DNA from: a virus
Length of the DNA stretch: 24,902 nucleotides
Strand: one strand, 5' to 3'
IMG/VR virus record: IMGVR_UViG_3300009081_000474
Location: 1-24,902 of that record
Shown: in pieces, positions 2,868-24,188 of the stretch
How the letters are laid out: every line of letters begins with the position of its first letter
How positions within the stretch are numbered: the first letter of the stretch is position 1
Notes under the pieces: generated by a model
The model's input: only the letters and a program-made list of their open reading frames with translations
What the model was told of the DNA's origin: nothing
Databases searched by the model: none
Position numbers and translations under genes: made by a program

Positions 2868-2873
2868 ACTTTC

Positions 2874-2902
2874 ATTATATATGAAAATAAAATTAAGGGC
2901 AA
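2874..2902 (-). promoter_or_regulatory. Putative sigma70-type promoter of queC, leaderless geometry
   Basis: On the minus strand TTGCCC (2897-2902), a 17-bp spacer and TATAAT (2874-2879) are followed by only 6 nt before the queC ATG. A start site 6-8 nt after the -10 would fall at or next to the ATG. The -35 overlaps one arm of the hairpin at 2895-2926. Confidence 0.55.
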
Positions 2903-2926
2903 CAAGATTTTACCTCATTGCCCCTT
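2895..2926. terminator. Hairpin between uvsX and queC, possible terminator
   Basis: Arms GGGCAA (2897-2902) and TTGCCC (2918-2923) pair across a 15-nt loop. Minus-strand transcripts leaving uvsX would read this stem followed by a T-rich tract (TTAATTTTATTTT). The plus strand also has a T-run after the stem. It probably separates uvsX from the queC block, but the large loop weakens the call. Confidence 0.4.
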
Positions 2927-2974
2927 TTCGATTTTTACTTGCCCTTCTTAGGGGTCTCCTTCTTAACTTCCTTC

Positions 2975-4132
2975 TTAACTTCCTTGGTCTTCGTTGCCAC
3001 TTTCAACACCTCCTTCCTCATCCAGTAACTCATCCTCGAAATCGGGGCTGGCTTGTTCGCCGGAGTTACCGTATTTGTATTTTTCTTTGATTATCTTCTC
3101 TACTTCTGGAATGATCTTGTTATCCCAGAAGTTTTTGTCATCCTTAAATTTGCTAAAATAACCTAGCTTAGTGCCGTCTGGAAGAGTATAGGTACTACCA
3201 GTTTGGATAATCACTCCGTGATTTACTGCCAAATTAAGAATACCAGCATACTTATCCAATCCAGTCAAGAAGTTTAAGTACATCTCAGCCTCTAGATAGG
3301 GTGGGACAAATCTGTTTTTAACAGTAAGAGCTCTGAGAGTAACACCACTATAGTTCTTAGCCTCAGGGAGCATCTTATCGTTATCGTTTTTATCATCCTG
3401 CTTTTCAGAACGACTGGCCAACTGCACAAGCAAGCTAGCCATATAAATTGGACCAGAGCCACCAGACTGCTTCTTCACAAGCGTCGGGTACATAGCTGCA
3501 GGATCGTCATAAGTATGGTTACTGAAAAGAATAGTAGTACCAGTACGAGCAGCCTTGTAAGTCAAAGTGCGAAGCATTGACTTCAATTGCTTGGCTCTCA
3601 AACCCATGTCACCAGCTGACTTACCAGCCTCAGCATCATTGAGTTCTTTCTGAGCAGACAAGTTACCAAGCGAATCAATGCTAATGATAAACTTGCCCTT
3701 TAAACTAGGATTCTTTTCAATACCGTCGAGTAGAGCAAAGATTTGATTACGGCAATTTTCAACTGTATCAACAGGTACATGTTTAGTCTTCTTCGGGTCA
3801 AGACCAACATTCTCTGCACCACGACTCTCAACTGCGATTTCAGTATCGAAAATGACTGGAATCATTCCTCTCTTCTGCGCATTACCGAGAATCTTGTTGA
3901 TAATATAGGTCTTACCAGTCTGAGAAGGTCCGATAAACCCGGTAATTCGGCCCTTCGGTACACCTCCAGTTAGGAGAGAACCAGACATAATGGCGTTAAG
4001 TACATAACAGCCTGTATCGATAAATTCACTAACTTCAGAAAGCGTTTGTTCTGAAAGATAGTTTGCTTCAGGGTTAATTTTGTTTAATGCTTCAAATACG
4101 TTATCAATTGCTTTTTGCGTTTCTTTGCTCAT
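2975..4132 (-). CDS. uvsX: UvsX, RecA-family strand-exchange recombinase
   Basis: Phage recombinase that forms filaments on single-stranded DNA and drives strand invasion for recombination-dependent replication. It is 385 aa, close to T4 UvsX. Walker A is GPSQTGKT (68-75) and the Walker B Asp is at 153 (FIISIDSLG). The end is strongly acidic (about 360-385), as in RecA and UvsX tails that tune DNA binding. The ATG at 4132 lies 6 nt after a TATAAT box whose -35 is in the last codons of the upstream gene. UvsY and UvsW, its T4 partners, are encoded 9 kb upstream on the same strand. Odd point: just past the stop, the +1 frame continues as a lysine-rich stretch (see findings). Confidence 0.95.
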   Translation of the reverse strand: MSKETQKAIDNVFEALNKINPEANYLSEQTLSEVSEFIDTGCYVLNAIMSGSLLTGGVPKGRITGFIGPSQTGKTYIINKILGNAQKRGMIPVIFDTEIAVESRGAENVGLDPKKTKHVPVDTVENCRNQIFALLDGIEKNPSLKGKFIISIDSLGNLSAQKELNDAEAGKSAGDMGLRAKQLKSMLRTLTYKAARTGTTILFSNHTYDDPAAMYPTLVKKQSGGSGPIYMASLLVQLASRSEKQDDKNDNDKMLPEAKNYSGVTLRALTVKNRFVPPYLEAEMYLNFLTGLDKYAGILNLAVNHGVIIQTGSTYTLPDGTKLGYFSKFKDDKNFWDNKIIPEVEKIIKEKYKYGNSGEQASPDFEDELLDEEGGVESGNEDQGS

Positions 4133-4138
4133 AGTTTT

Positions 4139-4166
4139 ATTATATTGTTTTCTATTTGTTATTCAA
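4139..4166 (-). promoter_or_regulatory. Putative sigma70-type promoter of uvsX, leaderless geometry
   Basis: TTGAAT (4161-4166), a 16-bp spacer and TATAAT (4139-4144) sit 6 nt before the uvsX ATG. The -35 is built from the last codon and stop of the upstream gene (…TTT GAA TAA). No Shine-Dalgarno site fits between the box and the ATG. Confidence 0.6.
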
Positions 4167-4545
4167 ATAGTTTAACAACTTTAGCTGCAGTACCTTGCGC
4201 AGCAGGGGTTACCTGTCGCTCAGGAGTAATGATCTTAGAGTTGCTAAACATTCTCTCGTACTGGTTGATCAACTTATCGTCCAGGTCGAGCTCTGTTGCC
4301 TCCACCACGTTCTTGGCGCTAAACTTCCAAACAGTCTTAGGCTCTTCCTTGTTCTTCAGAAACTCTCCGAAGAAGTAAGGCAACACCTGGACCTGAAGCT
4401 GACCAGAGCTAGGATTAGGCACAATATTTATAATGGCTGGGTTCTTAACCCAGAAATACTTCTCTTCTCTAGAGACAAGCTCACCATAGATGTTACGACC
4501 AACGTTGTCAACGAATACAATTAGGTTTTTCTTTTCCATACTCAT
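4159..4545 (-). CDS. Conserved-position small protein between DNA polymerase and UvsX, possible Sm-like barrel
   Basis: A 128-aa protein whose function I do not recognise. The first 60 residues alternate hydrophobic and polar positions with turns such as VGRNIYGEL and EKYFWVKNPAII. This looks like a small beta barrel reminiscent of Sm/Hfq-type folds, a weak guess from pattern only. The remainder is charged and likely flexible. An in-frame TTG at 4575 would overlap the polymerase stop by 4 bp, but the ATG at 4545, or the ATG at 4539, is more likely. A TTGAAA-18-TATATT pair (4570-4575 and 4546-4551) ends 6 nt before the 4539 ATG, the spacing seen at other genes here. Location between gp43 and uvsX suggests a replication or repair accessory role. 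Confidence 0.7.
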   Translation of the reverse strand: MSMEKKNLIVFVDNVGRNIYGELVSREEKYFWVKNPAIINIVPNPSSGQLQVQVLPYFFGEFLKNKEEPKTVWKFSAKNVVEATELDLDDKLINQYERMFSNSKIITPERQVTPAAQGTAAKVVKLFE

Positions 4546-4575
4546 AATATATAAAGGCTTTTTACAAGATTTCAA
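4546..4575 (-). promoter_or_regulatory. Possible promoter of the small pol-uvsX linker gene
   Basis: TTGAAA (4570-4575), 18-bp spacer, TATATT (4546-4551), then 6 nt to the ATG at 4539. A TATATA hexamer with 16-bp spacing overlaps it. This is what argues for the inner ATG rather than the TTG at 4575. Confidence 0.4.
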
Positions 4576-7186: not shown

Positions 7187-7215
7187 ATGATACGCTATCA
7201 CCTTCTTAAACGCAA
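7187..7215 (-). promoter_or_regulatory. Putative promoter of the DNA polymerase gene
   Basis: TTGCGT (7210-7215), a 17-bp spacer and TATCAT (7187-7192), followed by 8 nt to the ATG at 7178. The -35 overlaps the 3' end of the glycosyltransferase gene, as at several other genes in the window. Confidence 0.45.
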
Positions 7216-11288: not shown

Positions 11289-11795
11289 TTAAGATTCGTT
11301 ATAATTATCTTCCTTGTCAGGATCGATATAGACGTAATCACCATTCGGTAATGATTGCATAGCTTCTCTGAACTGAGCCTCTTGATACAAAGCTATGGTG
11401 TCTTTCTCTTTCTTTTCTTTCTTAATTCTAGTGATGAATGCGTGAAATGCAATGGTTGTAAAGTAACTAAACGGGTTATAATTGTAGCCGTTTTTATCTT
11501 TAGTCTTAACGTTAAATTTCTTATTCTTCAAGGCTGTATACATTTTTACTACAGCATCACCAACCATATCATCTCGATAAGAATAGTTAATAAAATTAGG
11601 AGCATAAGAAAGACCTTTGGCGATTTTATAAATTGACTCAGCCAAGTAGTCGTTAATTTCTCCACTCTTGTAAAAGTCTTTAATTTGTCTATAGAATTCT
11701 TTTGGATCAACATAAAACTGTTCTTTGGGAGGCTTTGCAGATGGGTCCATCACAAAGGTTTCTGGCTTCTTAATTTTTGGTAAGTTACTTTTCAT
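11289..11795 (-). CDS. 55: Late transcription sigma factor, T4 gp55-like
   Basis: Small sigma70-family protein that in T4 directs host RNA polymerase to TATAAATA late promoters together with gp33 and the clamp. From the ATG at 11795 it is 168 aa (T4 gp55 is 185). The recognisable core is the region-2-like segment with DDMVGDAVVKMYTAL, NPFSYFTTIAFHAFITR and the basic IKKEKKEK run, closely resembling the gp55 pattern. The alternative start at 11870 lies deep in uvsW and adds non-homologous sequence. The chosen ATG overlaps the uvsW stop by 11 bp. TAAATA boxes found upstream of several genes in this window are plausible targets. Confidence 0.85.
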   Translation of the reverse strand: MKSNLPKIKKPETFVMDPSAKPPKEQFYVDPKEFYRQIKDFYKSGEINDYLAESIYKIAKGLSYAPNFINYSYRDDMVGDAVVKMYTALKNKKFNVKTKDKNGYNYNPFSYFTTIAFHAFITRIKKEKKEKDTIALYQEAQFREAMQSLPNGDYVYIDPDKEDNYNES

Positions 11796-13640: not shown

Positions 13641-13668
13641 ATTATATACAATAAAATTTGAAAGGCAA
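13641..13668 (-). promoter_or_regulatory. Putative sigma70-type promoter of uvsY, leaderless geometry
   Basis: TTGCCT (13663-13668), 16-bp spacer, TATAAT (13641-13646), then 6 nt to the uvsY ATG. It faces the late-type box of the plus-strand gene at 13681; the two share bases. Confidence 0.6.
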
Positions 13669-13675
13669 ATAAATA
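13668..13675 (+). promoter_or_regulatory. Late-type AATAAATA box before the 13681 gene
   Basis: AATAAATA, one mismatch from the T4 late octamer TATAAATA, ends 5 nt before the ATG at 13681. No -35 is apparent. Confidence 0.45.
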
Positions 13676-13929: not shown

Positions 13930-14302
13930 TTTAGACGAGTATGTTGGTTTTGTTTATAAAATAACATACATACCAACTGGAAAGTACTACATTGGTAAGA
14001 AGTTCTTCTGGAAGATTCTAAAGAGACCACCTCTCAAAGGCAAGAAGAATAAGCGGCATGAAAAGCAATCTTCTGATTGGAAACAGTATTGGGGTTCATC
14101 CGAAGAGCTTTTAAAGGATATTGAAAAGTTTGGCAGAGAAAACTTTAAGAGAGAGATTCTTTACATGGCTAAATCTAAATGGGATTGTGCGTATGAAGAG
14201 GCGCGCCTTCAAATGGAAAGCAAAGTATTGTTTGACCCAAATTGTTACAACGGAATTATAAATATCAGACTAAAGAAGTTTTTAAAGAAACCAGTTGAAT
14301 AA
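13901..14302 (+). CDS. GIY-YIG domain protein (Seg-like endonuclease candidate)
   Basis: A 133-aa protein with an N-terminal GIY-YIG-type core: GFVY (16-19) and YYIG (29-32) in a GFVYKITYIPTGKYYIGKK context. This is followed by a basic loop (PPLKGKKNKRHEKQ), the WKQYWGSSEEL segment common in phage Seg-like members, and FGRENFKREIL. The family includes free-standing homing endonucleases of T4 (SegA-E) and repair nucleases. No separate DNA-binding module is evident after about residue 110, so it is short. The ATG lies inside the previous gene (29-bp overlap), so its expression is probably coupled. Nuclease activity is inferred from the motif pair. Confidence 0.75.
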   Translation: MEWVLPEGVNLDEYVGFVYKITYIPTGKYYIGKKFFWKILKRPPLKGKKNKRHEKQSSDWKQYWGSSEELLKDIEKFGRENFKREILYMAKSKWDCAYEEARLQMESKVLFDPNCYNGIINIRLKKFLKKPVE

Positions 14303-14322
14303 GAAAAAATACGTGTTACAAT
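14295..14322 (+). promoter_or_regulatory. Putative sigma70-type promoter of the 14329 gene, leaderless geometry
   Basis: TTGAAT (14295-14300), 16-bp spacer, TACAAT (14317-14322), then 6 nt to a GTG start. As at uvsX, the -35 is formed by the final Glu codon and stop of the preceding gene. Confidence 0.5.
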
Positions 14323-14328: not shown

Positions 14329-14862
14329 GTGGAGAAGAAGAAATATATAAAACGTCTTAATTTAAATACTATTTCACTAATAGATTTAAAATATCTTATT
14401 GAAACCGAAGTAATACCTAAAACAGTTAATGAAGTAGTAGAGTATTATAATGAATTGTTTGATATAACAAAAGAATATCATAAACAATTCTTTTACCATA
14501 ACTTCATAAAAACAATTTGCGATATCTATAATAAAGAAAAGACATATTTCTCCTACATATTTTATTATAATCCACAAAAATTTTTAATTGATCAAGAGAT
14601 TGAGCTGTTAATAAACAGACTTAATAAAACATTGCCACTGGTGTTTTACTGTGATAAGCTTCCGTTTGAATGTATCGATGACAAGTTTACATCAGGTGAA
14701 ATGCAGGAATTAAAAGAAAAGCTAAAAATTCAGATAGATAAAAAGAATAAGAAAGACTTTTCATTCAGAAGCATAAAGGCCTTTGCTAAGAAGTATAAAC
14801 TCACGTTTCTATCAGAAGAATACTTTAACGATCTGAAAGTAAAGCATGGTTTGTATAAATAA
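14329..14862 (+). CDS. Hypothetical protein, Lys/Ile/Tyr-rich
   Basis: A 177-aa protein starting at GTG; I recognise no family. It is predicted almost wholly helical, rich in Lys, Ile, Tyr, Phe and Glu, with few Gly or Pro, and no membrane segment or known motif. The first half carries hydrophobic helices (VNEVVEYYNELFDITKEYH), the second charged helices ending in LKVKHGLYK. Base composition is visibly more AT-rich than neighbouring genes (runs of AAA, ATA, TAT codons), which hints at separate acquisition. The GTG start is supported by the -35/-10 pair immediately upstream. It lies alone between the GIY-YIG gene and a late-type box, so it may be transcribed earlier than its neighbours. Confidence 0.65.
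   Translation: MEKKKYIKRLNLNTISLIDLKYLIETEVIPKTVNEVVEYYNELFDITKEYHKQFFYHNFIKTICDIYNKEKTYFSYIFYYNPQKFLIDQEIELLINRLNKTLPLVFYCDKLPFECIDDKFTSGEMQELKEKLKIQIDKKNKKDFSFRSIKAFAKKYKLTFLSEEYFNDLKVKHGLYK
14854..14861 (+). promoter_or_regulatory. Perfect T4-type late promoter octamer TATAAATA
   Basis: An exact TATAAATA ends 5 nt before the ATG at 14867. It overlaps the stop codon of the preceding gene. With transcription starting about 6 nt below the octamer, the mRNA would begin at or beside the ATG. Confidence 0.55.
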
Positions 14863-15328: not shown

Positions 15329-15761
15329 TATTTCATCATTTGATGCTACCGTTGTAAAATACCTCTTGCAGATTAACGAGCAAGGTGGTGGCGGTGGAGT
15401 TGCAATTCCTTCATCTCCACAAATTGGTGATGCTCCAGAAGGGCCTCAATCAGTTGCTACTGGGGATATGCCAATGCCTCCAGACGCAACAACTCCAATT
15501 GACGATGAAACAGAAGCAGAAGCTGAGGATAAGACTCCAACCCCAGAAGGTGTTATCTACCTTATCAATCTTATTAAGAAAGCTTTCTGGCTTGATCCTA
15601 ATACAGTTGACTTAAGCGGCTTTCAAACTAATCTATTAACTAAGAAAGTTACTGCCAAGAATGCAGAAGAAGTACTAGATGTATTAAAAAAGATTATTGA
15701 CGATGCTGGCTTGTTAGAGATTCCAAACGAAACTGATACAGCTGAAACAAGAGACGAATAA
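15315..15761 (+). CDS. Acidic Pro/Gly-rich putative internal head protein
   Basis: A 148-aa unknown protein. It begins with a helix (FDATVVKYLLQINE, 9-22) ending in INE before a run of five glycines, again compatible with an (L/I)xE prohead-protease site. Residues 28-75 are low-complexity, acidic and Pro-rich (GDMPMPPDATTPIDDETEAE). The C-terminal 75 residues look folded: YLINLIKKAFWLDPNTVDLSG, then KNAEEVLDVLKKIIDDAG. The ATG overlaps the previous gene by 14 bp and the stop overlaps the next ATG by one base (TAATG), so the three genes are translationally coupled. No enzymatic motif seen. Confidence 0.7.
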   Translation: MPKPNISSFDATVVKYLLQINEQGGGGGVAIPSSPQIGDAPEGPQSVATGDMPMPPDATTPIDDETEAEAEDKTPTPEGVIYLINLIKKAFWLDPNTVDLSGFQTNLLTKKVTAKNAEEVLDVLKKIIDDAGLLEIPNETDTAETRDE

Positions 15762-16387
15762 TGAAAAAATTTAGCGATATAGTCGAGGCAGTTGTTAGCC
15801 ATAATGATCTTATTAGCAGGCAAAAAAAGGATGCTGCTTATTTTATCTTTGGAAGAATGCATCCACCAACCGCTGGTCACGACTACCTAATTAAACTCGC
15901 TAAAGAATACGCTGATAAAAATAATGCAGATTTTTACGTGTTCTTATCTCCAAGCGAAAAAGGTGATAAGAATCCAGTACCATATAAAGCAAGATTGTCA
16001 GCATTTAAAAACAATCCAACCTACGAAGATATTAACGTAGTTGAGAATGATAGAATTACAACACCTCAACACGCTGCAGGGTACCTTCACAATGTTTTAA
16101 AATACCCTATTGTTAGCATTGTAAGTGGTAGCGATCGTAAGGCTGATAACGAAGAGACATTTAAGACACCAATGAGAGATGGTACAAAGATTGGTGTTAT
16201 TGCTCTGGGTGGAGAAAGAGCAATGAAAGGTGATATTGATCCTAGTGATGTATCAACAGTAAAGGGCTCTAAAGTAAGAGCCCTCGCTAAAGCTGGTGAT
16301 TATAAGAGTTTTAGATCTTCTTTACCACCAAATACAAGTGAAGAGGATGCCAAAGCTTTATTTGACATCCTCAAGGGTGCTAAGTAG
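15761..16387 (+). CDS. HIGH-superfamily nucleotidyltransferase (NMN adenylyltransferase/cytidylyltransferase-like) with capsid-targeting-like N-terminus
   Basis: A 208-aa member of the HxGH nucleotidylyltransferase superfamily. FGRMHPPTAGH (30-40) is the (H/T)xGH ATP/CTP site, SGSD (122-125) is a mid-domain loop, and STVKGSKVRALAKAGDYKSF (165-184) corresponds to the ISSTxxR motif. Such proteins occur in many T4-like marine phages and are variously labelled nicotinamide-nucleotide adenylyltransferase or cytidylyltransferase; substrate is not determined by the motifs. Before the domain is a 20-residue leader, MKKFSDIVEAVVS, very like T4 internal-protein targeting peptides (M-K-x-aromatic...xE/A), so the enzyme may be packaged in the head. 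Its stop overlaps the convergent ftsZ-like stop by 8 bp. Confidence 0.8.
   Translation: MKKFSDIVEAVVSHNDLISRQKKDAAYFIFGRMHPPTAGHDYLIKLAKEYADKNNADFYVFLSPSEKGDKNPVPYKARLSAFKNNPTYEDINVVENDRITTPQHAAGYLHNVLKYPIVSIVSGSDRKADNEETFKTPMRDGTKIGVIALGGERAMKGDIDPSDVSTVKGSKVRALAKAGDYKSFRSSLPPNTSEEDAKALFDILKGAK
16263..16284. repeat. Perfect 8-bp hairpin inside the nucleotidyltransferase gene
   Basis: AGGGCTCT (16263-16270), a 6-nt loop, AGAGCCCT (16277-16284). It lies about 100 bp beyond the stop of the convergent ftsZ-like gene, so it could help end minus-strand transcripts, but no strong T-run follows on either strand. Confidence 0.35.
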
Positions 16388-17486
16388 AAAGCTTCTTAAG
16401 CTCTTCTAGCTTGGCAGTTGGATTACCCAAACCACCAATTGCAGTAAAGATACTCAAGCCAGCCTTGTTGCCTTTATAAATTCCTTGATGCACAGTTGAG
16501 TTATTCTTCAAGGTTCTTGTCAATTGCTCAAAGGCCTGATCAAGATACTCTTGTGGAATATTATCAAGAGCATTTGAATCCCCTACCACAACTGCAGCAG
16601 CAATATTACCAGTACCGAGATCAATGCCACCAGACAAGATATTCTTCTTTAGATTGTCTCTCATAGCCTTTGAAATCTCAGTACCATCTGACCATTGAGT
16701 AACTTGTGTTGCTCCGAATACAATGATACCGCTATCAAGAACAGTCTTATAATCCTTATTATCAAAAGAGGTATAACTACTATTCTTTGTGATAATAGTA
16801 TTAAAGAGATTAAAGAGAGAGCAAATGCTGTTGTTAGAAGTATTCCAGAACTGATTAATAGACAGTCTTGGGTAGATTGTATTAATCTTCTCATTATCAA
16901 TAATTACCAATGGAGAAACGATTCCTTGATCTACTAGCTCAAGAACCTCCGTTAAAGTCTTAAGAGCATTCTCAGCACACTTTTTACCTTCAGTGTTCTT
17001 AGGCAGAGCCAAAAATACACCAACCTTGCTTGAAGTAGACTTGATTGAGTCTTGATAGTCCTTTGCAATCTTAATGAGCTCAGTTGTTGTGCCAGATCCA
17101 GTACCACCACCAGCGCCAGCACATACAAAGATACGATCAAAATTACCTGCAAAAGACTTTCTGAATAGATCTAGAACATCTTCTCTTTGCTCAATTAGAG
17201 CCTGCTTAGCAACTTCTCTATTTTTACCAGCACCTGAATCTTGACCAATCTTTAGCTTGTTAGGTACATCAATAGTGGCCAAGTCTTGCTGAGCAGTATT
17301 AATTACACAAGTTCTCTTGTAACCAAGCTTGTGAAATGTTTCAGCAATTCTAGAACCACCTTGACCAGCACCAACAAAGCTAAACTTAAAGCCTACTGGA
17401 ATCTTGTCTTCAATGTCAGTATTAATTTCTTGACCAGGCATTGGAATGTCTGGTAACTCCATATCGAAAGATGTATCATCACTCAT
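16380..17486 (-). CDS. FtsZ/tubulin-superfamily GTPase
   Basis: A 368-aa cytoskeletal GTPase of the FtsZ/TubZ/PhuZ superfamily. An N-terminal disordered extension (1-30) precedes the first strand and G-loop FSFVGAGQGGSRIA (35-47). The tubulin signature AGGGTGSG is at 125-132. FDNKDYKTVL (241-250) aligns with the FtsZ T7 loop, keeping Asp242 and Asp245, so GTP hydrolysis by the longitudinal neighbour should be possible. An insertion rich in Asn/Ser (211-240) precedes it. There is no FtsZ-type C-terminal peptide; it ends ELKKLST. In other phages, members form filaments that centre or move phage DNA and capsids. It follows the unknown 17495 gene with an 8-bp gap. An FtsZ decoy role is the main alternative. 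Confidence 0.88.
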   Translation of the reverse strand: MSDDTSFDMELPDIPMPGQEINTDIEDKIPVGFKFSFVGAGQGGSRIAETFHKLGYKRTCVINTAQQDLATIDVPNKLKIGQDSGAGKNREVAKQALIEQREDVLDLFRKSFAGNFDRIFVCAGAGGGTGSGTTTELIKIAKDYQDSIKSTSSKVGVFLALPKNTEGKKCAENALKTLTEVLELVDQGIVSPLVIIDNEKINTIYPRLSINQFWNTSNNSICSLFNLFNTIITKNSSYTSFDNKDYKTVLDSGIIVFGATQVTQWSDGTEISKAMRDNLKKNILSGGIDLGTGNIAAAVVVGDSNALDNIPQEYLDQAFEQLTRTLKNNSTVHQGIYKGNKAGLSIFTAIGGLGNPTAKLEELKKLST

Positions 17487-17491: not shown

Positions 17492-17520
17492 TATTTATGA
17501 TTTAGGTTTAAAGGCTTCAA
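17492..17520 (-). promoter_or_regulatory. Putative promoter of the ftsZ-like gene
   Basis: TTGAAG (17515-17520), 17-bp spacer, TAAATA (17492-17497), then 5 nt to the ATG. It can be read as a sigma70 promoter with a weak -10 or as a late-type CATAAATA box. It lies within the 3' end of the upstream gene. Confidence 0.45.
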
Positions 17521-18063: not shown

Positions 18064-18720
18064 CTACTCTTCGGCCATCTTAATAAAGTCGTAAAACTCC
18101 TTGCGAGTCTTCTCATCATCATAAAAGTCTCCAGACAGCTTAGAAGTAACCATATAACAACCTTGATGTCTAACACCTCGATTACAAGCACAGGTATGTT
18201 GAGCCTTAACAACGACTGCAACACCCTTATTATGTTCACAAACCTCATTAATAGCCTTATGAATCTGCATAGTCAAGCCTTCTTGAATCTGAGGTCTACG
18301 ACCATAAAACTCAACAATACGATTGAGCTTACTCAAACCAATAACACGACCTTCTAGGCTAGGAATATAAGCAACATGCACCAAGCCAGTAAAAGCCAAG
18401 TGATGGTGACTACACATACTAGTCAATGGGATATTCGTCTGAGAAACAATACCATCATAACCATCAGCAGGGAATGAAGTAATCTTCGGAGGAGCCTCGT
18501 AACATCCAGAGATCAAATCAAACACAAACGACTTAGCAACACGTCGAGGAGTACCAGCGCTATTCGGATCATTTCGCCAATCAATGCGAAGAGCATCAAG
18601 AAAGGCCTCATAGGCCTTTGCACCTTTATCAATGATAGCAAGCTTCTGCTCTTCAGTCAAAGCCATGGAGCTGTTAGCAGTCGGGAGGAGGTAATCTTTC
18701 TCTCTAATCTCATCATTCAT
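18064..18720 (-). CDS. folE: GTP cyclohydrolase I
   Basis: Converts GTP to 7,8-dihydroneopterin triphosphate, the entry step for both folate and 7-deazaguanine synthesis. It is 218 aa, the usual length. The zinc site is Cys103 and His106 (TSMCSHHHLAF) with Cys177 in HTCACNRGV, which also contains the conserved RGV motif. GTPRRVAKS (56-64) is the standard N-terminal signature. All active-site features are present. It diverges from the queD-like gene across a 73-bp gap and has one of the best promoters in the window. Its pathway partners queD-like and queE lie across that gap, while queC lies 15 kb away. Confidence 0.95.
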   Translation of the reverse strand: MNDEIREKDYLLPTANSSMALTEEQKLAIIDKGAKAYEAFLDALRIDWRNDPNSAGTPRRVAKSFVFDLISGCYEAPPKITSFPADGYDGIVSQTNIPLTSMCSHHHLAFTGLVHVAYIPSLEGRVIGLSKLNRIVEFYGRRPQIQEGLTMQIHKAINEVCEHNKGVAVVVKAQHTCACNRGVRHQGCYMVTSKLSGDFYDDEKTRKEFYDFIKMAEE

Positions 18721-18726: not shown

Positions 18727-18754
18727 ATTATAGAGTAAAATTCGTTTGAGTCAA
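18727..18754 (-). promoter_or_regulatory. Putative sigma70-type promoter of folE, leaderless geometry
   Basis: TTGACT (18749-18754), 16-bp spacer, TATAAT (18727-18732), then 6 nt to the folE ATG. The -35 lies inside a cluster of overlapping short palindromes (18746-18761). Confidence 0.65.
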
Positions 18755-18793: not shown

Positions 18794-19495
18794 ATGAGAT
18801 ATTATTCCACGAAGGTTATTGAACTCGGAAGCGCTGCTTTTCGTCAGCCAAACGCAAAGTCTCACTGCAGATTTATTCACGGATATCGTTTGACTGGTAA
18901 GTTTATGTTTACTGCAGAGACTCTTGACACTAACAACTGGGTTGTCGATTTCGGTGACTTCGATGAACTGAAGGGCTATTTGCAAGGTCAGTTTGATCAT
19001 AAGCTCGTTATTTCTGATAAGGACCCTGCTCTTAAGGAGCTTGAGGCTCTTGAGAAGGCTGGAGCTGTTGAGATTACTTTGTTGAAAGAAGGTGTTGGGA
19101 TTGAGATGTTTGCTAAGTACTGCTTCGAGGCTGCTGATAGCTACGTGAAGCATAAGACTAATGGCCGTGTTCGCGCTCACTCTGTTGAGGTGTTTGAACA
19201 TGAGAAGAATTCTGCTATTTACTCTGCTGAAAGCGCAGATGAGACTCTTGCAGAAGTTGAAGATGAAGTCGAGGCTGTTGCTCCAGTGAGGGGTAAGGCT
19301 AAGAAAGGTAAGACCGCTGAACCTGCCTGGACTCCTCCGTCTCCAACTGCTTCTAAGCAGACAGAAGCCTTGCCATATGAGACTAATAAACCTGTAAAGA
19401 TTACCCCTAAGCAGACTACTACTCCACCGACTGGTGTCCCTGTTGGTGGTAAGAATAGGCCCTCTACTTGGGACTTTGGAACTAAATGGGCTTGA
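18794..19495 (+). CDS. queD: QueD/6-pyruvoyl-tetrahydropterin synthase-like protein with altered zinc site and long tail
   Basis: QueD makes 6-carboxytetrahydropterin from the FolE product. I use the ATG at 18794 (233 aa); an upstream TTG at 18746 adds nothing conserved. Residues 1-140 match the fold: Cys25 with HGY (29-31), NNWVVDFGDFDELK (47-60) and DHKL (68-71). Two expected zinc histidines look replaced: SAAF where AAH is usual (Phe16) and HGY where HGH is usual (Tyr31). I recall other phage and prophage proteins with a similar SHCRF-LHGY pattern, so this is probably a family trait, not decay. A tail of about 90 residues, acidic then Lys/Pro/Thr-rich, has no QueD counterpart. Placement with folE and queE supports the pathway. 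Confidence 0.8.
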   Translation: MRYYSTKVIELGSAAFRQPNAKSHCRFIHGYRLTGKFMFTAETLDTNNWVVDFGDFDELKGYLQGQFDHKLVISDKDPALKELEALEKAGAVEITLLKEGVGIEMFAKYCFEAADSYVKHKTNGRVRAHSVEVFEHEKNSAIYSAESADETLAEVEDEVEAVAPVRGKAKKGKTAEPAWTPPSPTASKQTEALPYETNKPVKITPKQTTTPPTGVPVGGKNRPSTWDFGTKWA

Positions 19496-19519
19496 ACTCG
19501 AGAGTGATTCCTATATCAT
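19492..19519 (+). promoter_or_regulatory. Putative sigma70-type promoter of queE, leaderless geometry
   Basis: TTGAAC (19492-19497), 16-bp spacer, TATCAT (19514-19519), then 6 nt to the queE ATG. The -35 contains the stop codon of the queD-like gene. Confidence 0.5.
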
Positions 19520-19525
19520 TGAATT

Positions 19526-20260
19526 ATGAGTTCATTAATTCTCTCTGATGACTTCGTCTTTGAAACTGTAGAAGGTGAAGGTCATTTGGTTGGCTACCCG
19601 AGTATCTTTATGAGGTTGGCTATGTGTAACTTGACGTGTATCGGGTTTAAGTCTCCTGATTCACCGTTTGGTTGTGATAGCTATGTTAGCTGGTCTAAGA
19701 AGAATAAGAGGTCTTTTGAGGAGATCTTTGAGATTCTTGAAAGTAATGGTTATATCGAGAAGCTTAAGACTAATCATATCTTTAAGATTACTGGTGGTGA
19801 GCCTCTTATTCAGCAAAAGTCTTTGATTGATTTTATTAAGGCTTTTGAAGATAAGTATAAGTTCTTCCCTAGAATTGACTTCGAAACTAATTGTACTATT
19901 AAACCTGACTCGTTCTGGTACGAAAATAGTATGACTACGTTTACTGTATCGCCTAAGCTGACTAGTAATGGTGATCCTGCTGAGAAGAGATATAATCCAG
20001 AAGTTATTAAGTTTCATAAAGATAATGGTTCTTTCTTTAAGTTTGTTATTGCTAAGGACTTTGATGTTACTGAGATCTATGACAAGTATATTAACGAGTT
20101 CAATATTATTAAGCGTTCAGTTTGGCTGATGCCTTGTTGTGGTTCTCGTGATGAGCATAATGCAGTAGCTCCTTGGGTTGCTGAAGTATGTAAGAAAGAG
20201 GGGTTTAACTTTAGCCCTCGATTGCAGTTGGTCTTGTGGAATAAGGCCTTGAAAGTCTAA
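19526..20260 (+). CDS. queE: 7-carboxy-7-deazaguanine synthase QueE (radical SAM)
   Basis: Radical-SAM enzyme that contracts 6-carboxytetrahydropterin to 7-carboxy-7-deazaguanine. It is 244 aa. The start region ETVEGEGHLVGYPSIFMRL (13-31) is a QueE signature. The cluster cysteines appear as Cys34, Cys38 and Cys50 (CNLTC ... GCDS): the usual CxxxCxxC is expanded by about nine residues between the second and third Cys. QueE is known for variant cluster loops, so activity is still likely. KITGGEP (about 89-95) is the SAM-binding GGE motif, and SPKL (about 142-145) is also typical. It ends just before a strong inverted repeat at 20269-20317. Confidence 0.93.
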   Translation: MSSLILSDDFVFETVEGEGHLVGYPSIFMRLAMCNLTCIGFKSPDSPFGCDSYVSWSKKNKRSFEEIFEILESNGYIEKLKTNHIFKITGGEPLIQQKSLIDFIKAFEDKYKFFPRIDFETNCTIKPDSFWYENSMTTFTVSPKLTSNGDPAEKRYNPEVIKFHKDNGSFFKFVIAKDFDVTEIYDKYINEFNIIKRSVWLMPCCGSRDEHNAVAPWVAEVCKKEGFNFSPRLQLVLWNKALKV

Positions 20261-20629: not shown

Positions 20630-20910
20630 GCGAACACACATTTAAAAATTTTAATGAGTTCTACGACTTTTTAGCTACCAACAACTCTCACTTTACTAGC
20701 ACTAAAATTCAGAGCTTTATGGGGGTTGTTCATACGGCTAGAAAAACTAGCTGCGGTATGTGCAAGCGTAAGAACTTTAACATTGCAGATGAAACATATA
20801 GAAACATGTTTACTTTGCTGACTCAAGAAGATAAACAGATGATTAAATCTCTATTAAATGTTGACTCTGTAAAATTCTTCATGAATGAAGCACCAATGTT
20901 TACATTCTAG
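20626..20910 (+). CDS. Hypothetical small protein with CGMC motif
   Basis: A 94-aa soluble protein with no recognised family. Helical segments flank a central TSCGMCKRKNF (about 41-51), where one CxxC could bind metal or be redox active, although the usual second pair is missing. The N-terminal part (FKNFNEFYDFLATNN) and C-terminal part (EDKQMIKSLLNVDSVKFFM) look like alpha helices. The ATG overlaps the stop of the membrane-protein gene by 4 bp, so the two are likely co-translated and may act together at the membrane. Nothing else in the sequence narrows the role. Confidence 0.6.
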   Translation: MSEHTFKNFNEFYDFLATNNSHFTSTKIQSFMGVVHTARKTSCGMCKRKNFNIADETYRNMFTLLTQEDKQMIKSLLNVDSVKFFMNEAPMFTF

Positions 20911-20933
20911 TAGATTTATTATTTCGTGAACTA

Positions 20934-20939
20934 TATAAT
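20934..20939 (+). promoter_or_regulatory. TATAAT box 6 nt before the NadR-type kinase gene
   Basis: TATAAT (20934-20939) followed by 6 nt and ATG. No good -35 is visible at 16-18 bp, so it is weaker than the others, but the -10 and its distance to the ATG match the pattern. Confidence 0.4.
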
Positions 20940-20945
20940 AGTATC

Positions 20946-21656
20946 ATGAGAATTGCCATTTCCGGTGCCCAGTGCATGGGCAAATCTACCCTGATTAAAG
21001 ACTTTCTTGCAGAGTGGACTAATTATAAATCTCCAGAGAAGACATATAGAGATGTTCTTGTAGAAGGTAATTTACCTCATAGCTCAAACACCACAAAAGA
21101 ATCTCAACAGAAGATTCTTGACTTCATGGTTAAGCAGCTAGAAGAGACTCGTAAGGGAGATAAGATTGTATTTGATCGTTGTCCCTTAGATAATCTCGTA
21201 TATTCAATGTGGGCTTATCATCATAACGTTGGAGATATTGATTTTGACTTTATTAAGAAGTGTATTCCAGTTGTTCGTGATGCTTTGAAGCATATTGATA
21301 TTATCTTTTATATTCCAATTACTAGAGCCGCAAAGACTCCAGATATAGAAGAAGATGCCATGAGAGATGCTAACCCTTTTATGAGAGTTGAGATTGATAA
21401 CCTCTTCAAGGTGTTTGCTATAGAAAATAGAGACAACCCTAAGTCTAATTATTTCCATGCTGATGATCGCCCTCCTATTATTGAGACCTTTGGAGAGCGC
21501 AATGAACGTATCCAGATTATGAAGTTGTATTTGGATGCTGATGGAGACTCTATGGACCCTAATGCCAATATCTTTAACGATCCAAATTTAGGCATGGAAG
21601 ACATTGAGGCTCTAGAAGCTTTGGCAAGACCTGAGCCAAAACAGCCTAAAAAATAA
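20946..21656 (+). CDS. P-loop kinase/ATPase, NadR-kinase (AAA_28)-like
   Basis: A 236-aa P-loop protein. Walker A GAQCMGKST is at 7-15. FDRCPLDNLVYSMWA (about 79-93) is the DR-x-x-x-D segment of deoxynucleoside-kinase and NadR-type kinases. A lid-like region (about 135-150) follows, and a Pro/Lys-rich acidic tail ends the protein. The fold suits phosphorylation of a small substrate such as a nucleoside or nicotinamide riboside; substrate not determined. NadR combines such a kinase with an NMN adenylyltransferase, and a separate HIGH-superfamily nucleotidyltransferase is encoded at 15761-16387, so a split NAD salvage pair is possible. TATAAT lies 6 nt before the ATG. Confidence 0.7.
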   Translation: MRIAISGAQCMGKSTLIKDFLAEWTNYKSPEKTYRDVLVEGNLPHSSNTTKESQQKILDFMVKQLEETRKGDKIVFDRCPLDNLVYSMWAYHHNVGDIDFDFIKKCIPVVRDALKHIDIIFYIPITRAAKTPDIEEDAMRDANPFMRVEIDNLFKVFAIENRDNPKSNYFHADDRPPIIETFGERNERIQIMKLYLDADGDSMDPNANIFNDPNLGMEDIEALEALARPEPKQPKK

Positions 21657-21659
21657 ATA
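21652..21659 (+). promoter_or_regulatory. Late-type AATAAATA box before the 21666 gene
   Basis: AATAAATA overlaps the stop codon of the upstream gene and ends 6 nt before the ATG at 21666. Confidence 0.35.
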
Positions 21660-21665
21660 AAATTA

Positions 21666-22391
21666 ATGAGCAAACTCACAGTAATTATTCCTGCTGCTGG
21701 TGTAGGTAGCAGGTTACGGCTTCCTTATTCAAAAGAAATACTAAGAGTTTCAGAAGATAAATCTCTTATTGATTTCTCATTTGATTTTTTTAAAGACTAC
21801 GGAAGAAAAGATGTGGAGTTTGTTTTAGTTATAAATGAAAATAAACTAGATGTAGTAAAGTATCTATCCAAATATAAAGATAGATTCAATATTAGTTTCA
21901 CTTTTCAAAACCCGAACGAGCAAGAATACACAGGTGCTATAAAAAGCGCAAAACATTTGTTTGGAGAACATAATGTTATATTACTACCTGATACTTTAAT
22001 GAAGCTAAGTCTCGGGGTTGATTTATTTAAATCTATAGAAAGCAGTCTTACAGAAACTGGTTTTACATTCTTTTATAAAAAAGAAACTAACCATAACATG
22101 CTCAAAACAAAAGGTGCGTTATTTATAAATGAAAACAATATTATAGAAATGTATGAGGACAAACCACAAGAGCGATTAGAGAGATTTAATGCTTATTGGT
22201 GCAGCTTTGCCTTTAGAAAGAGAGCTTTTGACCAAAGTATGACATTTATGGAAAAGAGCACGTTAAGACAGCGGGTTTTTGTTGATGAGATAAAAACCAC
22301 ACCTTTGTATTTAAGTAAGGGTATTGAGGTGGAAGATTATACAGATCTGGGTACATGGCATGAATTAAACCGGTATATTAAAAATGCATAA
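21666..22391 (+). CDS. Sugar-1-phosphate nucleotidyltransferase
   Basis: A 241-aa NTP-transferase-type protein that would join a nucleotide to a sugar phosphate. The N-terminal nucleotide-binding signature is IPAAGVGSRLRLPYSKE (8-24), followed by a Rossmann-like series of strands. LLPDTLM (about 99-105) is the metal/substrate site where the family usually has GD, and VEDYTDLGTWHELNRY closes the fold in the manner of glucose-1-phosphate thymidylyltransferase relatives. Sugar and base are not deducible. The HAD phosphatase gene begins inside its last 8 bp, which suggests a two-step sugar-activation module. The product could feed the glycosyltransferases encoded elsewhere in the window. Confidence 0.8.
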   Translation: MSKLTVIIPAAGVGSRLRLPYSKEILRVSEDKSLIDFSFDFFKDYGRKDVEFVLVINENKLDVVKYLSKYKDRFNISFTFQNPNEQEYTGAIKSAKHLFGEHNVILLPDTLMKLSLGVDLFKSIESSLTETGFTFFYKKETNHNMLKTKGALFINENNIIEMYEDKPQERLERFNAYWCSFAFRKRAFDQSMTFMEKSTLRQRVFVDEIKTTPLYLSKGIEVEDYTDLGTWHELNRYIKNA

Positions 22392-22962
22392 AAAACTAAT
22401 CACAGACTGTGATGGTGTGTTGCTCGATTGGTCTTTTGCATTTGATGTATGGATGAGAGAACAAGGATACATTAAATTGCAAGATACTGATCATATTTTT
22501 TACCAGAATAAAAAATATGGTATTCCTGAAGAGGAGGCTTTAAGTTGTATTACTAGATTTAATGAAAGTGGAGCAGTTGGTTTTCTTCCACCTTTTAGAG
22601 ATGCTCAAGAATATATTAAAAAACTAGCAGAAGATGGCTGGAGATTTGAAGTAATCAGCAGCTTACATATAGACAAATATGCTCAAAAATTAAGAGCAGA
22701 AAATTTAATACACTTGTTCGGAGATGTATTTGATCATATAAATTGCAGTTTAGATTTTACAAAAAGTAAATTAGATAGTCTTAAAGAAAGATATAAAGGT
22801 AAAAATTATTTTTGGGTAGAAGATAGTGTTTCTCATGCAGTAAGCGGCAAGCAAGTTGGTTTGCGAAGCGTTATTATGGACCACGCTTACAATAAAAATT
22901 GGACCGGAGATAGAGTTTATAATTGGAAAGAAATGTATAAACTAATAACAGAAAACAATTAG
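22384..22962 (+). CDS. HAD-superfamily phosphatase/hydrolase
   Basis: A 192-aa HAD protein. Motif I is TDCDGVLLDW (7-16) with Asp8 nucleophile and Asp10 acid/base, motif II is ISS (about 89-91), motif III is a Lys in FTKSKLD, and motif IV is WVEDS (about 143-147). The helical cap between about 17 and 70 gives substrate access. It would remove a phosphate from a small metabolite; substrate unknown. The ATG overlaps the nucleotidyltransferase stop by 8 bp, so the two are co-expressed and probably act on the same sugar, though a nucleotide phosphatase is equally possible by fold. Confidence 0.8.
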   Translation: MHKKLITDCDGVLLDWSFAFDVWMREQGYIKLQDTDHIFYQNKKYGIPEEEALSCITRFNESGAVGFLPPFRDAQEYIKKLAEDGWRFEVISSLHIDKYAQKLRAENLIHLFGDVFDHINCSLDFTKSKLDSLKERYKGKNYFWVEDSVSHAVSGKQVGLRSVIMDHAYNKNWTGDRVYNWKEMYKLITENN

Positions 22963-22976
22963 TAAATATTTCTTTA

Positions 22977-23005
22977 TTGACAGAACAGGCTAAAAAGAAT
23001 AAATA
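22977..23005 (+). promoter_or_regulatory. TTGACA/TAAATA promoter before the basic 23012 gene
   Basis: A perfect -35 TTGACA (22977-22982), 17-bp spacer, TAAATA (23000-23005), then 6 nt to a GTG start. The element also reads as late-type AATAAATA (22998-23005), so both early and late use are possible. Confidence 0.5.
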
Positions 23006-23011
23006 ATAGTA

Positions 23012-23227
23012 GTGATACAGTACAAAGAGAGATTTTTAACTCTTCTAGAAAAGACCACCCGCACAACCCCGCAGGGTGGTAAAGGTACTCTTAAAGCTAA
23101 AGCTACTAAGAAATTTGGTAAGGGCAAAATGTCTTGTAGCAAAGCTAGAAAGTTAAAGACAAAGAAAGCCACAGCTCATACAAAGGCTCAGGCTAATTGG
23201 TTTTTAAATTTTCATTGCCAAAAATAA
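23012..23227 (+). CDS. Very basic small protein, possible internal DNA-binding head protein
   Basis: A 71-aa protein starting at GTG, chosen because the promoter-like boxes end 6 nt upstream and no ATG is available. It has about 20 Lys/Arg and few acidic residues. The first 13 residues (IQYKERFLTLLE) form a helix ending in LLE, again an (L/I)xE site, and the rest is Lys/Thr/Gly-rich (GKGTLKAKATKKFGKGK, KARKLKTKKATAHTKAQ). A small hydrophobic end (NWFLNFH) closes it. No family recognised. Composition suits a DNA-condensing or DNA-ejected internal protein, made late and processed; this is inference. A 7-bp hairpin lies in its 5' part (23054-23080). Confidence 0.6.
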   Translation: MIQYKERFLTLLEKTTRTTPQGGKGTLKAKATKKFGKGKMSCSKARKLKTKKATAHTKAQANWFLNFHCQK

Positions 23228-23230
23228 ATA
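23223..23230 (+). promoter_or_regulatory. Late-type AATAAATA box before the 23236 gene
   Basis: AATAAATA overlaps the stop of the basic protein gene. It ends 2 nt before ATG 23233 and 5 nt before ATG 23236; the second spacing is that seen at other starts. Confidence 0.35.
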
Positions 23231-23235
23231 CTATG

Positions 23236-23451
23236 ATGAAAGAATTCAATAACAACTTCAATAAACTACTCGAGAACTATGCTCCACTAAGAACACAGTC
23301 TCGATTATTTTATCCTAGAAACTTAAAGTTGTCTGAAGAGTTTATTAAGAGCTTTAAAAGCGAATACAACCGTCTTTTAAAAGAAGGTAATCATCCTAAA
23401 AAGATTATGGAAAAGATTTCCAAAGCTCTTAAGTTTCACATCAACGGTTAG
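23236..23451 (+). CDS. Small basic protein with capsid-targeting-like N-terminus
   Basis: A 71-aa protein from the second of two adjacent ATGs (72 aa from 23233). The N-terminus MKEFNNNFNKLLE closely parallels MSKFEETLNKYYGLLE of the 14867 gene and T4 internal-protein leaders, with LLE as a possible prohead-protease site. The remainder is a helical, Lys/Arg-rich body (NLKLSEEFIKSFKSEYNRLLKEG, split by a turn at NHPKK). No family recognised. It converges on phoH with an 11-bp overlap of the two 3' ends. Late expression and head packaging are inferred from the upstream AATAAATA box and the leader. Confidence 0.6.
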   Translation: MKEFNNNFNKLLENYAPLRTQSRLFYPRNLKLSEEFIKSFKSEYNRLLKEGNHPKKIMEKISKALKFHING

Positions 23452-24127
23452 ACTTAAGTTCATTAAGTTTACCAACAATAAACTTTAAGATTTTACTTCT
23501 TTTAATATCTTCATCAGTAAGAGTAAAGGATTGAATGCCGTTACTCTTACAATCGTCACTATTAAACTTAGCTACAATGTTACCGTAGCTCTTCTTGTCT
23601 CTAATATCTACTTGGTTACTATCCCCAATAACAACTAGCTTACCATGTTCACCAAGACGAGTGAGAACAATAATAAGCTGATCAAGTTCAGCGTTCTGAG
23701 CCTCATCTAACAACACAATCTTATCATGGAATGTTGTACCTCTCAAGAAGTTAAGAGGTTGAATATCTAAAGCACTCTCAGAAGCTAACTTAGTAATAGC
23801 AGCCTCAGAAATCATCTCACTAAGCTTTTCCAAGAACGGAGCACCGAAAGGACCAATCTTTTCATGTAATTCACCAGGCAAGGCTCCTAGTTTTTGATTT
23901 GAACACTCAGCAATACTTCTCAAATATAGAATGCTCTTAAAACTTTTTCTTTGGATTAGTTTCAAAGCGGCTAATACAGCACAATATGTTTTTGCTGTAC
24001 CAGCTGGCCCATCAATAAAGATAAGCTTATTGTCTCTGTCTAATATAGCATCAACAATTCTCTTGTGATTTTCAGAAAGCTCATACTTTTCTGCTACATT
24101 AAATGCCTTTGGGTTTTTAGATGACAT
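23441..24127 (-). CDS. phoH: PhoH-like P-loop ATPase
   Basis: A 228-aa PhoH-family ATPase, very common in marine phages; the biochemical role is unsettled (RNA-associated helicase/ATPase functions have been proposed). Walker A GPAGTAKT is at 40-47, and Walker B is IVLLDEAQN, followed by LDQLIIVLTRLGEHGKLVVIGDSNQVD, the typical PhoH sensor region. I use the ATG at 24127. The frame is open to 24352, but that extension runs antisense through the oxygenase gene and lacks family sequence. The ATG is 7-8 nt below a TATATT box. Its 3' end overlaps the convergent small gene by 11 bp. Confidence 0.94.
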   Translation of the reverse strand: MSSKNPKAFNVAEKYELSENHKRIVDAILDRDNKLIFIDGPAGTAKTYCAVLAALKLIQRKSFKSILYLRSIAECSNQKLGALPGELHEKIGPFGAPFLEKLSEMISEAAITKLASESALDIQPLNFLRGTTFHDKIVLLDEAQNAELDQLIIVLTRLGEHGKLVVIGDSNQVDIRDKKSYGNIVAKFNSDDCKSNGIQSFTLTDEDIKRSKILKFIVGKLNELKSNR

Positions 24128-24137
24128 AATCTTTAAT

Positions 24138-24149
24138 ATATACGTATAT
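24138..24149. promoter_or_regulatory. 12-bp palindrome in the phoH/oxygenase divergent region
   Basis: ATATACGTATAT is a perfect palindrome in the 61-bp gap between divergent phoH and the oxygenase gene. It overlaps the likely phoH -10 region and could be an operator, but AT-rich palindromes arise easily by chance. Confidence 0.25.
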
Positions 24150-24153
24150 TTAG

Positions 24154-24181
24154 TTGAAAATCCAAATCTAGCATTTAAAAT
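24154..24181 (+). promoter_or_regulatory. Putative promoter of the 2OG oxygenase gene, leaderless geometry
   Basis: TTGAAA (24154-24159), 16-bp spacer, TAAAAT (24176-24181), then 7 nt to the ATG at 24189. Confidence 0.45.
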
Positions 24182-24188
24182 AAAATGT

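Follow-up and report, generated by a model that had tools for sequence, protein, structure and literature searches.

Promoter-type boxes abutting start codons in a T4-superfamily phage lineage, and their reading as leaderless or nearly leaderless gene starts

Genes and promoter boxes of the window

The virus record IMGVR_UViG_3300009081_000474 of IMG/VR was analysed over its whole length of 24,902 bases (hereafter, the window), and this work deals with the promoter-type boxes that stand directly upstream of its start codons, with their recurrence in related phages and with the mode of translation initiation that they suggest. Judged by sequence matches, the window carries core genes of the T4 superfamily: DNA polymerase, the RecA-family protein UvsX, a UvsW-like helicase, gp46/47-like proteins, UvsY (PF11056 match) and gp55, the identities of gp46/47 and UvsW resting on domain matches and gene order. 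Megablast of the window against a phage collection returned no match, and the DNA polymerase is about 28-33% identical to those of the best listed named phages. Domain searches further recognized QueC, folE, a 6-pyruvoyl-tetrahydropterin synthase (QueD-like) and a tubulin/TubZ-like GTPase, while the QueE-like gene (19526) and the 2OG oxygenase gene (24189) gave Pfam matches below the curated cut-off only.

A -10 box was scored where T, A and T stood at positions 1, 2 and 6, with at most one mismatch at positions 3-5, and the box ended 6-8 nt upstream of the start codon; a -35 element, in the window counts, was TTG at a spacer of 15-18. All nine -10 sites named in an earlier sequence-only reading of this DNA (queC, uvsX, polymerase, uvsY, folE, queE, the 14329 gene, the kinase and the 2OG oxygenase) are there, at spacings of 6-8 nt (Table 1). 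The same reading placed a TTGnnn -35 element 16-17 bp above the -10 box in most cases, which holds for eight of the nine, the kinase being the exception, and it rightly noticed -35 elements built from the end of the upstream gene, TTGAAT at uvsX and 14329 being read as ..TT GAA TAA. Its account of the sigma70-type sites therefore stood; what it overlooked is a second class of boxes of the T4 late type, without a -35 element, which were scored at up to one mismatch from TATAAATA. A gene for a gp55-type late sigma factor lies in the same window, and tblastn found gp55 in 10 of the 10 related records examined.

Table 1. Promoter-type boxes upstream of start codons, and the late sigma factor gene, in the window (G001 is the related record whose uvsX is 94% identical to that of the window)
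Feature	Sequence	Position	Strand	Distance and start codon	-35 element and remarks
queC -10	TATAAT	2874-2879	-	6 nt to ATG 2867	TTGCCC 2897-2902, spacer 17
uvsX -10	TATAAT	4139-4144	-	6 nt to ATG 4132	TTGAAT 4161-4166
4539-gene -10	TATATT	4546-4551	-	6 nt to ATG 4539	TTGAAA 4570-4575, spacer 18
DNA polymerase -10	TATCAT	7187-7192	-	8 nt to ATG 7178	TTGCGT 7210-7215
gp55-type late sigma factor gene		11289-11795	-		phrog_234 late sigma transcription factor, E-value 1e-26
uvsY -10	TATAAT	13641-13646	-	6 nt to ATG 13634	TTGCCT 13663-13668
Late-type box	AATAAATA	13668-13675	+	5 nt to ATG 13681	start only 46 bp from divergent uvsY start
14329-gene -10	TACAAT	14317-14322	+	6 nt to GTG 14329	TTGAAT 14295-14300, from the end of the upstream gene
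Late box	TATAAATA	14854-14861	+	5 nt to ATG 14867	repeated in G001 at 25039
Late box	CATAAATA	17492-17499	-	5 nt to ATG 17486	tubulin/TubZ-like gene
folE -10	TATAAT	18727-18732	-	6 nt to ATG 18720	TTGACT 18749-18754, spacer 16; arrangement repeated in G001 at 21192
queE-like -10	TATCAT	19514-19519	+	6 nt to ATG 19526	TTGAAC 19492-19497
Kinase -10	TATAAT	20934-20939	+	6 nt to ATG 20946	no TTG -35
Late-type box	AATAAATA	21652-21659	+	6 nt to ATG 21666	
Late-type box	AATAAATA	22998-23005	+	6 nt to GTG 23012	
phoH -10	TATATT	24135-24140	-	7 nt to ATG 24127	divergent from 2OG oxygenase promoter; PhoH PF02562
2OG oxygenase -10	TAAAAT	24176-24181	+	7 nt to ATG 24189	TTGAAA 24154-24159; arrangement repeated in G001 at 15719

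The 33 curated starts of the window include 11 with a -10 box at 6-8 nt, where 2000 dinucleotide shuffles gave a mean of 0.86 and a maximum of 5, and 9 with both a -10 box and TTG (mean 0.07, maximum 2). The curated set takes in the start at 23233; positions 23234, 23237 and 24187 are no true starts, and 24187 is omitted. Since these starts were picked with the finding known, more weight goes to those called by a codon-usage caller blind to upstream sequence (motif-blind starts), 6 of 24 of which have the -10 box (100 shuffles: mean 0.54, maximum 2) and 5 of 24 the box with TTG (shuffle maximum 1). The observation that promoter boxes abut start codons in the window is confirmed. Its description as a window-wide pattern is not, as 11 of the 33 curated starts carry a sigma70-type box, 5 a late-type box and 17 neither. 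A Shine-Dalgarno core, defined as GGAG, GAGG or AGGA only, precedes none of the 33 curated starts (shuffle mean 2.41) and one of 25 motif-blind ones, in agreement with the earlier remark that no convincing Shine-Dalgarno sequence was visible.

Recurrence of the boxes in related phages

Searching IMG/VR for uvsX yielded 73 loci, some of them on contigs of 200-230 kb, and the comparison set comprised ten related IMG/VR records and six named T4-like phages (T4, P-SSM4, Cr30, phiM12, C48C1 and HTVC008M), all with motif-blind starts. Genes whose start lay less than 100 nt from the upstream end of a record or less than 60 nt from its downstream end were dropped, and G013 was analysed to base 80,000 of 80,050. 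Pooled counts refer to ten records, G002 being excluded as a near-duplicate of G001; it was kept in the tally of TTG spacers and has its own row in the shuffle test. Four more records (G006, G007, G009 and G014) were pattern-scanned only. GC content ranges from 31 to 41% across all eleven clade records, the window among them.

In sigma70 promoters the -10 element occupies positions -12 to -7, hence a spacing of 6 nt between box and start codon puts +1 on the A of AUG. The T4 late box TATAAATA lies at -13 to -6 (PMC1524935), hence for the late class a spacing of 5 nt does the same. The pooled boxes peak at exactly the two spacings predicted by this geometry: late boxes at spacings of 4, 5, 6 and 7 nt number 14, 90, 60 and 25, and -10 boxes at spacings of 5, 6, 7 and 8 nt number 15, 68, 28 and 26. 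Late boxes at exactly 5 nt precede 26 of 184 genes in G001, against a background of 0.58 per position, as well as 19 of 211 in G003, 8 of 80 in G010, 8 of 74 in G011, 7 of 66 in G012 and 8 of 91 in G013, and the -10 count is maximal at 6 nt in 9 of the 11 clade records (exceptions G005 and G008). The positional test proposed in the sequence-only reading, namely -10 enrichment upstream of starts, was thus run on relatives and gave a -10 peak at 6 nt and, in most records, counts above those of shuffled sequence.

Late boxes exceed the maximum of 100 dinucleotide shuffles in 10 of the 11 clade records, not in the window (1 of 24 starts), and -10 boxes accompanied by TTG do so in all 11. No box count rises above the shuffle maximum in T4, P-SSM4, Cr30, phiM12 or C48C1, and only the late count does in HTVC008M (9 vs. 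4); T4, with a GC content of 35%, has no late box and no -10 box at leaderless spacings. A pattern scan of 14 records gave 63 matches vs. 9 for the reversed pattern, in a count where G005 and G006 have both of their sites in common and a single site of G008 appears twice.

The two classes of boxes differ in what stands further upstream. TTG is found at spacer 16 in 35% and at spacer 17 in 27% of the sigma70-class genes (n = 116), at 3.8 and 3.2% in the late class (n = 157) and at 4.1 and 2.5% in other genes (n = 1008), so that the late boxes of the clade, of the NATAAATA type, have TTG at background level at these two spacers and no -35 element. T4 late promoters likewise lack a conserved -35 (PMC7892883), which agrees with this result. 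A further sign comes from the nucleotide immediately preceding the start codon. RNA polymerase favours a pyrimidine before a purine start, and a pyrimidine is present at -1 in 86 of 90 genes with a late box at spacing 5 as compared to 562 of 934 boxless genes (P = 9e-14), in 28 of 60 at late spacing 6, where +1 would itself fall at -1, and in 56 of 68 with a sigma70 box at spacing 6 (P = 2e-4). After the 1200 genes were collapsed into 590 families, the share was 0.95 for late spacing 5 (80 families) vs. 0.60 for all other genes (537), and dropped to 0.76 for the sigma70 class (42 families). Among the clade's late genes at spacing 5, moreover, GTG is the start codon in 13% of 90 even though the caller penalises GTG, a share which would fit leaderless GUG starts.

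The proteins encoded behind each class were scanned in G001. Of the late-class proteins, 20 of 33 were scanned and four had a function (portal, tail tube, virion structural protein and glycosyltransferase), the other 16 belonging to families of no named function or having no match; 8 of 9 sigma70-class proteins were scanned, comprising a 2OG oxygenase, GTP cyclohydrolase, UvsX, an epimerase and a kinase, with three giving no match. These functions are consistent with early and late programmes, in what is a small sample.

Conservation was followed in orthologs, with identical upstream regions collapsed, the -10 box scored at 5-8 nt and the eight genes with fewer than 8 orthologs left unscored. 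The box is present in 36 of 48 polymerase orthologs (34 of these with a TTG -35), 31 of 36 for queC, 33 of 53 for the 4539 gene, 18 of 46 for uvsX and 6 of 13 for uvsY; pooled over these five genes it occurs in 124 of 196 distinct upstream regions, 99 of them with TTG, and a Shine-Dalgarno core in 2 of the 196, against a -10 background of 0.001-0.015 per position. The position of the promoter relative to the start is fixed in many orthologs with protein identity down to 30-50%, the lowest being 30%. Where uvsX abuts or overlaps the preceding gene, it goes without a box of its own in many relatives. Over all nine scored genes (at least 8 orthologs each), the box is found in 141 of 276.

Ten of the eleven clade records have Shine-Dalgarno cores at 3-9% of their genes, the six named phages at 28-58%: 3.3% of 184 genes in G001, 6.6% of 211 in G003, 4.5% of 200 in G004, 9.0% of 188 in G005 and 4.5-8.8% in G002 and G010-G013, vs. 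57.6% of 198 in T4, 49.1% of 163 in HTVC008M, 47.7% of 199 in Cr30, 42.6% of 272 in phiM12, 39.0% of 118 in C48C1 and 27.9% of 136 in P-SSM4. Set against two control stretches farther upstream, the share does not exceed either one in G001-G004, G011, G012 and the window, and falls between the two in G010 and G013.

Gene arrangement completes the picture. The share of strict boxes at leaderless spacing is 31% of 234 first genes, 37% of 169 genes lying 11-40 nt past their neighbour, 25% of 343 more distant genes and 10% (46 of 454) of genes that overlap the previous one or follow it within 10 nt, and gene junctions are concentrated at -4 (99, of the ATGA type), -1 (58) and +1 (60). Fewer boxes in abutting and overlapping genes, together with these junction peaks, are what translational coupling predicts. 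The median spacing of divergent genes is 35-67 bp in eight of the eleven clade records, 198 in G001, 126.5 in G003 and 97 in T4 (n = 6), and the window offers only two pairs by that caller; these numbers are too small to carry weight.

Probable leaderless initiation and competing explanations

Taken together, the data argue for a T4-superfamily lineage in which both promoter classes give rise to mRNAs with no leader or almost none, genes within operons are coupled and Shine-Dalgarno sequences are used little or not at all, a reading to which we assign a probability of roughly 0.85. In this lineage, promoters would be built onto start codons. The host RNA polymerase with a sigma70-type factor would read early and metabolic genes from TTGnnn-16/17-TATAAT-6-AUG, and the polymerase carrying the phage gp55 sigma would read late genes from NATAAATA-5-AUG. 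From promoter geometry and the pyrimidine at -1 we infer that RNA of both classes begins on the A of AUG or within about 3 nt upstream of it. Ribosomes would then load on the 5'-terminal AUG of the first gene of a leaderless or nearly leaderless message, while downstream genes of the operon, which overlap or abut the stop of the gene before (ATGA, TAATG), would probably be translated through coupling, with Shine-Dalgarno pairing little used or not at all. Leaderless initiation with coupling inside operons, unlike T4, had been proposed in the sequence-only reading, and the spacing peaks, the TTG -35 elements, the low Shine-Dalgarno share, the conservation in orthologs and the gene junctions support it at the level of sequence. 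The "window-wide" of its title is overstated for the clade too, strict boxes being found at 266 of 1200 starts.

Several observations weigh against this reading or restrict it. Those 266 starts make up 22% of the total, about 44 of them are expected from shuffles (means summing to 36 for -10 and 8 for late boxes), and the strict count includes false positives just as it misses degenerate boxes; 161 of the 234 first genes and 258 of the 343 distant ones are boxless, and may have degenerate promoters, small genes that were missed, wrong starts or ordinary leaders. A -10 box at 7-8 nt, or a late box at 6-9 nt, would leave a leader of 1-4 nt. For -10 boxes alone, counts exceed the shuffle maximum in 8 of 11 clade records, not in G004, G005 and G008; in the same three records late boxes are commoner at 6 than at 5 nt, and the -10 spacing peak is broad in G004 and G005. 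The shuffles cover the whole 100 nt upstream and ignore that the last bases are the richest in AT, so that expected counts are somewhat low; the single-nucleotide peaks are independent of this and form the stronger argument. A pyrimidine at -1 is not exclusive to the predicted spacings (87% at late spacings 9 and 10, n = 23 and 15; 13 of 15 at sigma70 spacing 5), and 9.6% of late-class genes have TTG at spacer 15. Among orthologs, the -10 box is present in 0 of 15 for uvsW, 1 of 9 for queD (with a Shine-Dalgarno core in 3), 5 of 22 for gp47 and 11 of 34 for gp46. Lastly, the Shine-Dalgarno share of G005 (0.090) is slightly over its controls (0.074 and 0.069), and G008 has such cores in 19.6% of 97 genes (0.196 vs. 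controls of 0.072 and 0.144).

The most probable of the alternatives, which we still regard as unlikely, is that only late (gp55) transcripts and a minority of the early ones are leaderless, many others having short leaders without Shine-Dalgarno, as in the mixed phage HTVC008M. The late boxes of HTVC008M at 5, 8 and 18-43 nt, with its Shine-Dalgarno share of 49%, and the 419 of 577 first or distant clade genes with no strict box speak in its favour; set against it are the near-background Shine-Dalgarno level of the clade, G008 excepted, and the relaxed late boxes at 5-9 nt that are still enriched in boxless first genes (up to 0.10 vs. 0.01 per position). That G008 keeps some Shine-Dalgarno sequences and HTVC008M is mixed makes a gradual shift within the T4 superfamily plausible.

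A good deal less probable is that the boxes are not promoters and simply form unstructured A/U-rich initiation regions, of the S1-type non-Shine-Dalgarno kind, on mRNAs with leaders. Starts are indeed A/U rich and G-poor just upstream in the three clade records profiled, and most operon-internal genes carry only an A/U-rich region. Such regions leave unaccounted, nevertheless, the pooled single-nucleotide peaks one nucleotide apart between box types, the TTG at 16-17 bp in the TATAAT class and not in the late class, the -35/-10 pair conserved across orthologs, and the -1 pyrimidine, at 96% at late spacing 5 vs. 47-64% at spacings 6-8, even if it returns to a high value at 9-10.

We give only a very slim chance to misplaced start codons, with true starts downstream behind ordinary Shine-Dalgarno leaders. 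The motif-blind caller did shorten window genes 13681, 19526, 20946 and 22384. However, QueC has SGGIDS at residues 9-14 after ATG 2867 and the kinase GAQCMGKS at residues 7-14 after ATG 20946, which we take to be catalytic motifs (the latter a P-loop); a P-loop within the first residues pins the start at 20946, and Shine-Dalgarno cores stay at 3-7% whatever the tolerance in start choice (five tolerances, in G001, G003 and G013). Chance in AT-rich DNA, with TATAAT and ATG both common and good cases picked by the reader, could appeal to the low GC content of the clade and to relaxed TAnnnT showing no clear peak before ATG, and is next to impossible given the motif-blind dinucleotide shuffles, the 2000 shuffles of the window, the zeros of T4 at a comparable 35% GC and the 63 vs. 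9 matches of the reversed-pattern scan, the shuffle results refuting it as an account of the whole group.

A bolder form of the leaderless reading can be offered tentatively: the entire lineage would have abandoned Shine-Dalgarno sequences, host-sigma and gp55 promoters having moved to positions from which almost all primary transcripts begin with the initiator codon, with 70S-type leaderless initiation and coupling aided, in G001 at least, by a phage initiator-like tRNA. If true, this would be a virus-wide translation strategy independent of infection stage. A tRNA with CAU anticodon in G001 (L082:15310-15382) has a T1:T72 mismatch, and its arm and 1:72 mismatch presumably resemble those of initiator tRNA; the second CAU tRNA of G001 and those of G003 and G004 are elongator-like. 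Raised initiator tRNA strongly enhances translation of leaderless mRNA (PMC9031893). As G001 has 24 tRNAs and a tmRNA, the initiator-like tRNA may be merely part of the set. A phage-encoded bS21 ribosomal protein was considered as a shared cause and rejected: it is present in 1 of 13 records (G004:134233-134376, L208) and does not explain the group.

A host should translate leaderless mRNA well, which bears on its identification. Searched with a uvsX profile, the genome_contigs collection yielded 77 pattern stretches but no relative, and the polymerase profile gave 13 relatives at 22-32% identity, on contigs of mixed taxonomy and too distant for naming a host. Genes for tmRNA are found in G001 (L082:2843-3222), G003 (L092:12277-12660) and G008 (L167:5-397), with RF00023 matches of 113, 90 and 146 bits and long, differing predicted tag peptides; their best match being the ordinary Rfam family RF00023 is a weak hint to the host.

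Other features were met along the way. The QueC, GTP cyclohydrolase, QueD-like and QueE-like (weak Pfam match) genes of the window, at 2157-2867, 18064-18720, 18794-19495 and 19526-20260, form a preQ0 pathway that is nearly complete and may serve the modification of DNA or tRNA. The tubulin/TubZ-like GTPase gene (16380-17486, minus strand) is found here in a T4-like phage, with a late-type box 5 nt 5' of its ATG. Just upstream of uvsX lies a small conserved gene (4159-4539, minus strand) with a weak phrog_527 match only, whose product ends in LFE here and often in a KLFD-like C-terminus in relatives, and is perhaps a DNA-binding partner. G001 also has a group I intron match at L083:10624-10859 (RF00028, 70.9 bits).

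Comparison with known systems

The architecture of these gene starts is real, conserved and unusual, and leaderless expression is by far the best reading of the sequence. What appears new is a combination of known kinds, leaderless genes and T4-type promoters, in both promoter classes of a phage lineage; it is the coverage of both classes in a large lytic phage lineage that makes it surprising. Among the papers listed by the literature search, which largely missed subscription papers, none described leaderless late promoters for T4-like phages or a virus-wide leaderless strategy for a lytic phage; as an argument for novelty this is weak. Textbooks present phage gene expression through leaders and Shine-Dalgarno sequences with T4 and its relatives as the example, while here the start signals of transcription and translation would merge across a large lytic genome. 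Such phages would offer a natural test bed for what a ribosome needs in high-level leaderless translation. Gene prediction that calls starts by Shine-Dalgarno sequences should perform poorly on them, and the case bears on how promoters of uncultured viruses are read from sequence alone.

In Deinococcus-Thermus and Actinobacteria, a TATAAT-like signal about 10 bp upstream has been taken as the mark of leaderless genes, which make up about 40% and 20% of genes, respectively (Zheng et al., 2011, PMC3160421). A TATAAT-like, position-enriched signal about 10 bp upstream was likewise found here, strong in the pooled records and weak for -10 boxes alone in G004, G005 and G008. Those TA-led genes belong to cellular genomes, whereas the present ones belong to a phage lineage with Shine-Dalgarno sequences near background and a second, gp55-linked class spaced likewise. 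The cI mRNA of lambda is also a phage message starting at AUG (PMC9031893), but a single gene as opposed to a whole programme. Phage transcripts are said to be often leaderless in the work on AR9, but the leaders of AR9 itself measure 26-491 nt (PMC5312081).

The late boxes are closest to T4 late promoters (PMC1524935; PMC7892883), which they resemble in the TATAAATA box, the lack of a conserved -35, the gp55-type sigma and a probable link to late genes. T4's own NATAAATA boxes, in contrast, lie 14-41 nt from the start, mostly 21-29, typically with a Shine-Dalgarno sequence in between, as compared to 5 nt and no predicted leader in the clade, so that the initiation mode of T4 (Straboviridae), with Shine-Dalgarno sequences at most genes and a late leader of about 20 nt, is not that of the clade. 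Late promoters of the NATAAATA type have been reported in cyanophages too (PMC2984593). The Pelagibacter phage HTVC008M (Kyanoviridae) stands in between: it shares 8 NATAAATA boxes at spacing 5 with the pattern of the clade, and differs in being mixed, with 2 such boxes at 8 nt, 7 at 18-43 nt and Shine-Dalgarno cores at 49.1% of genes. In its genome (NC_020484), the starts with a late box at spacing 5 include 6280, 7562, 31132 and 49760, and late genes led by Shine-Dalgarno sequences occur alongside, such as those at 36520 and 46310 with the box at spacing 18. Being cultured as well as mixed, HTVC008M makes part of the leaderless reading testable now.

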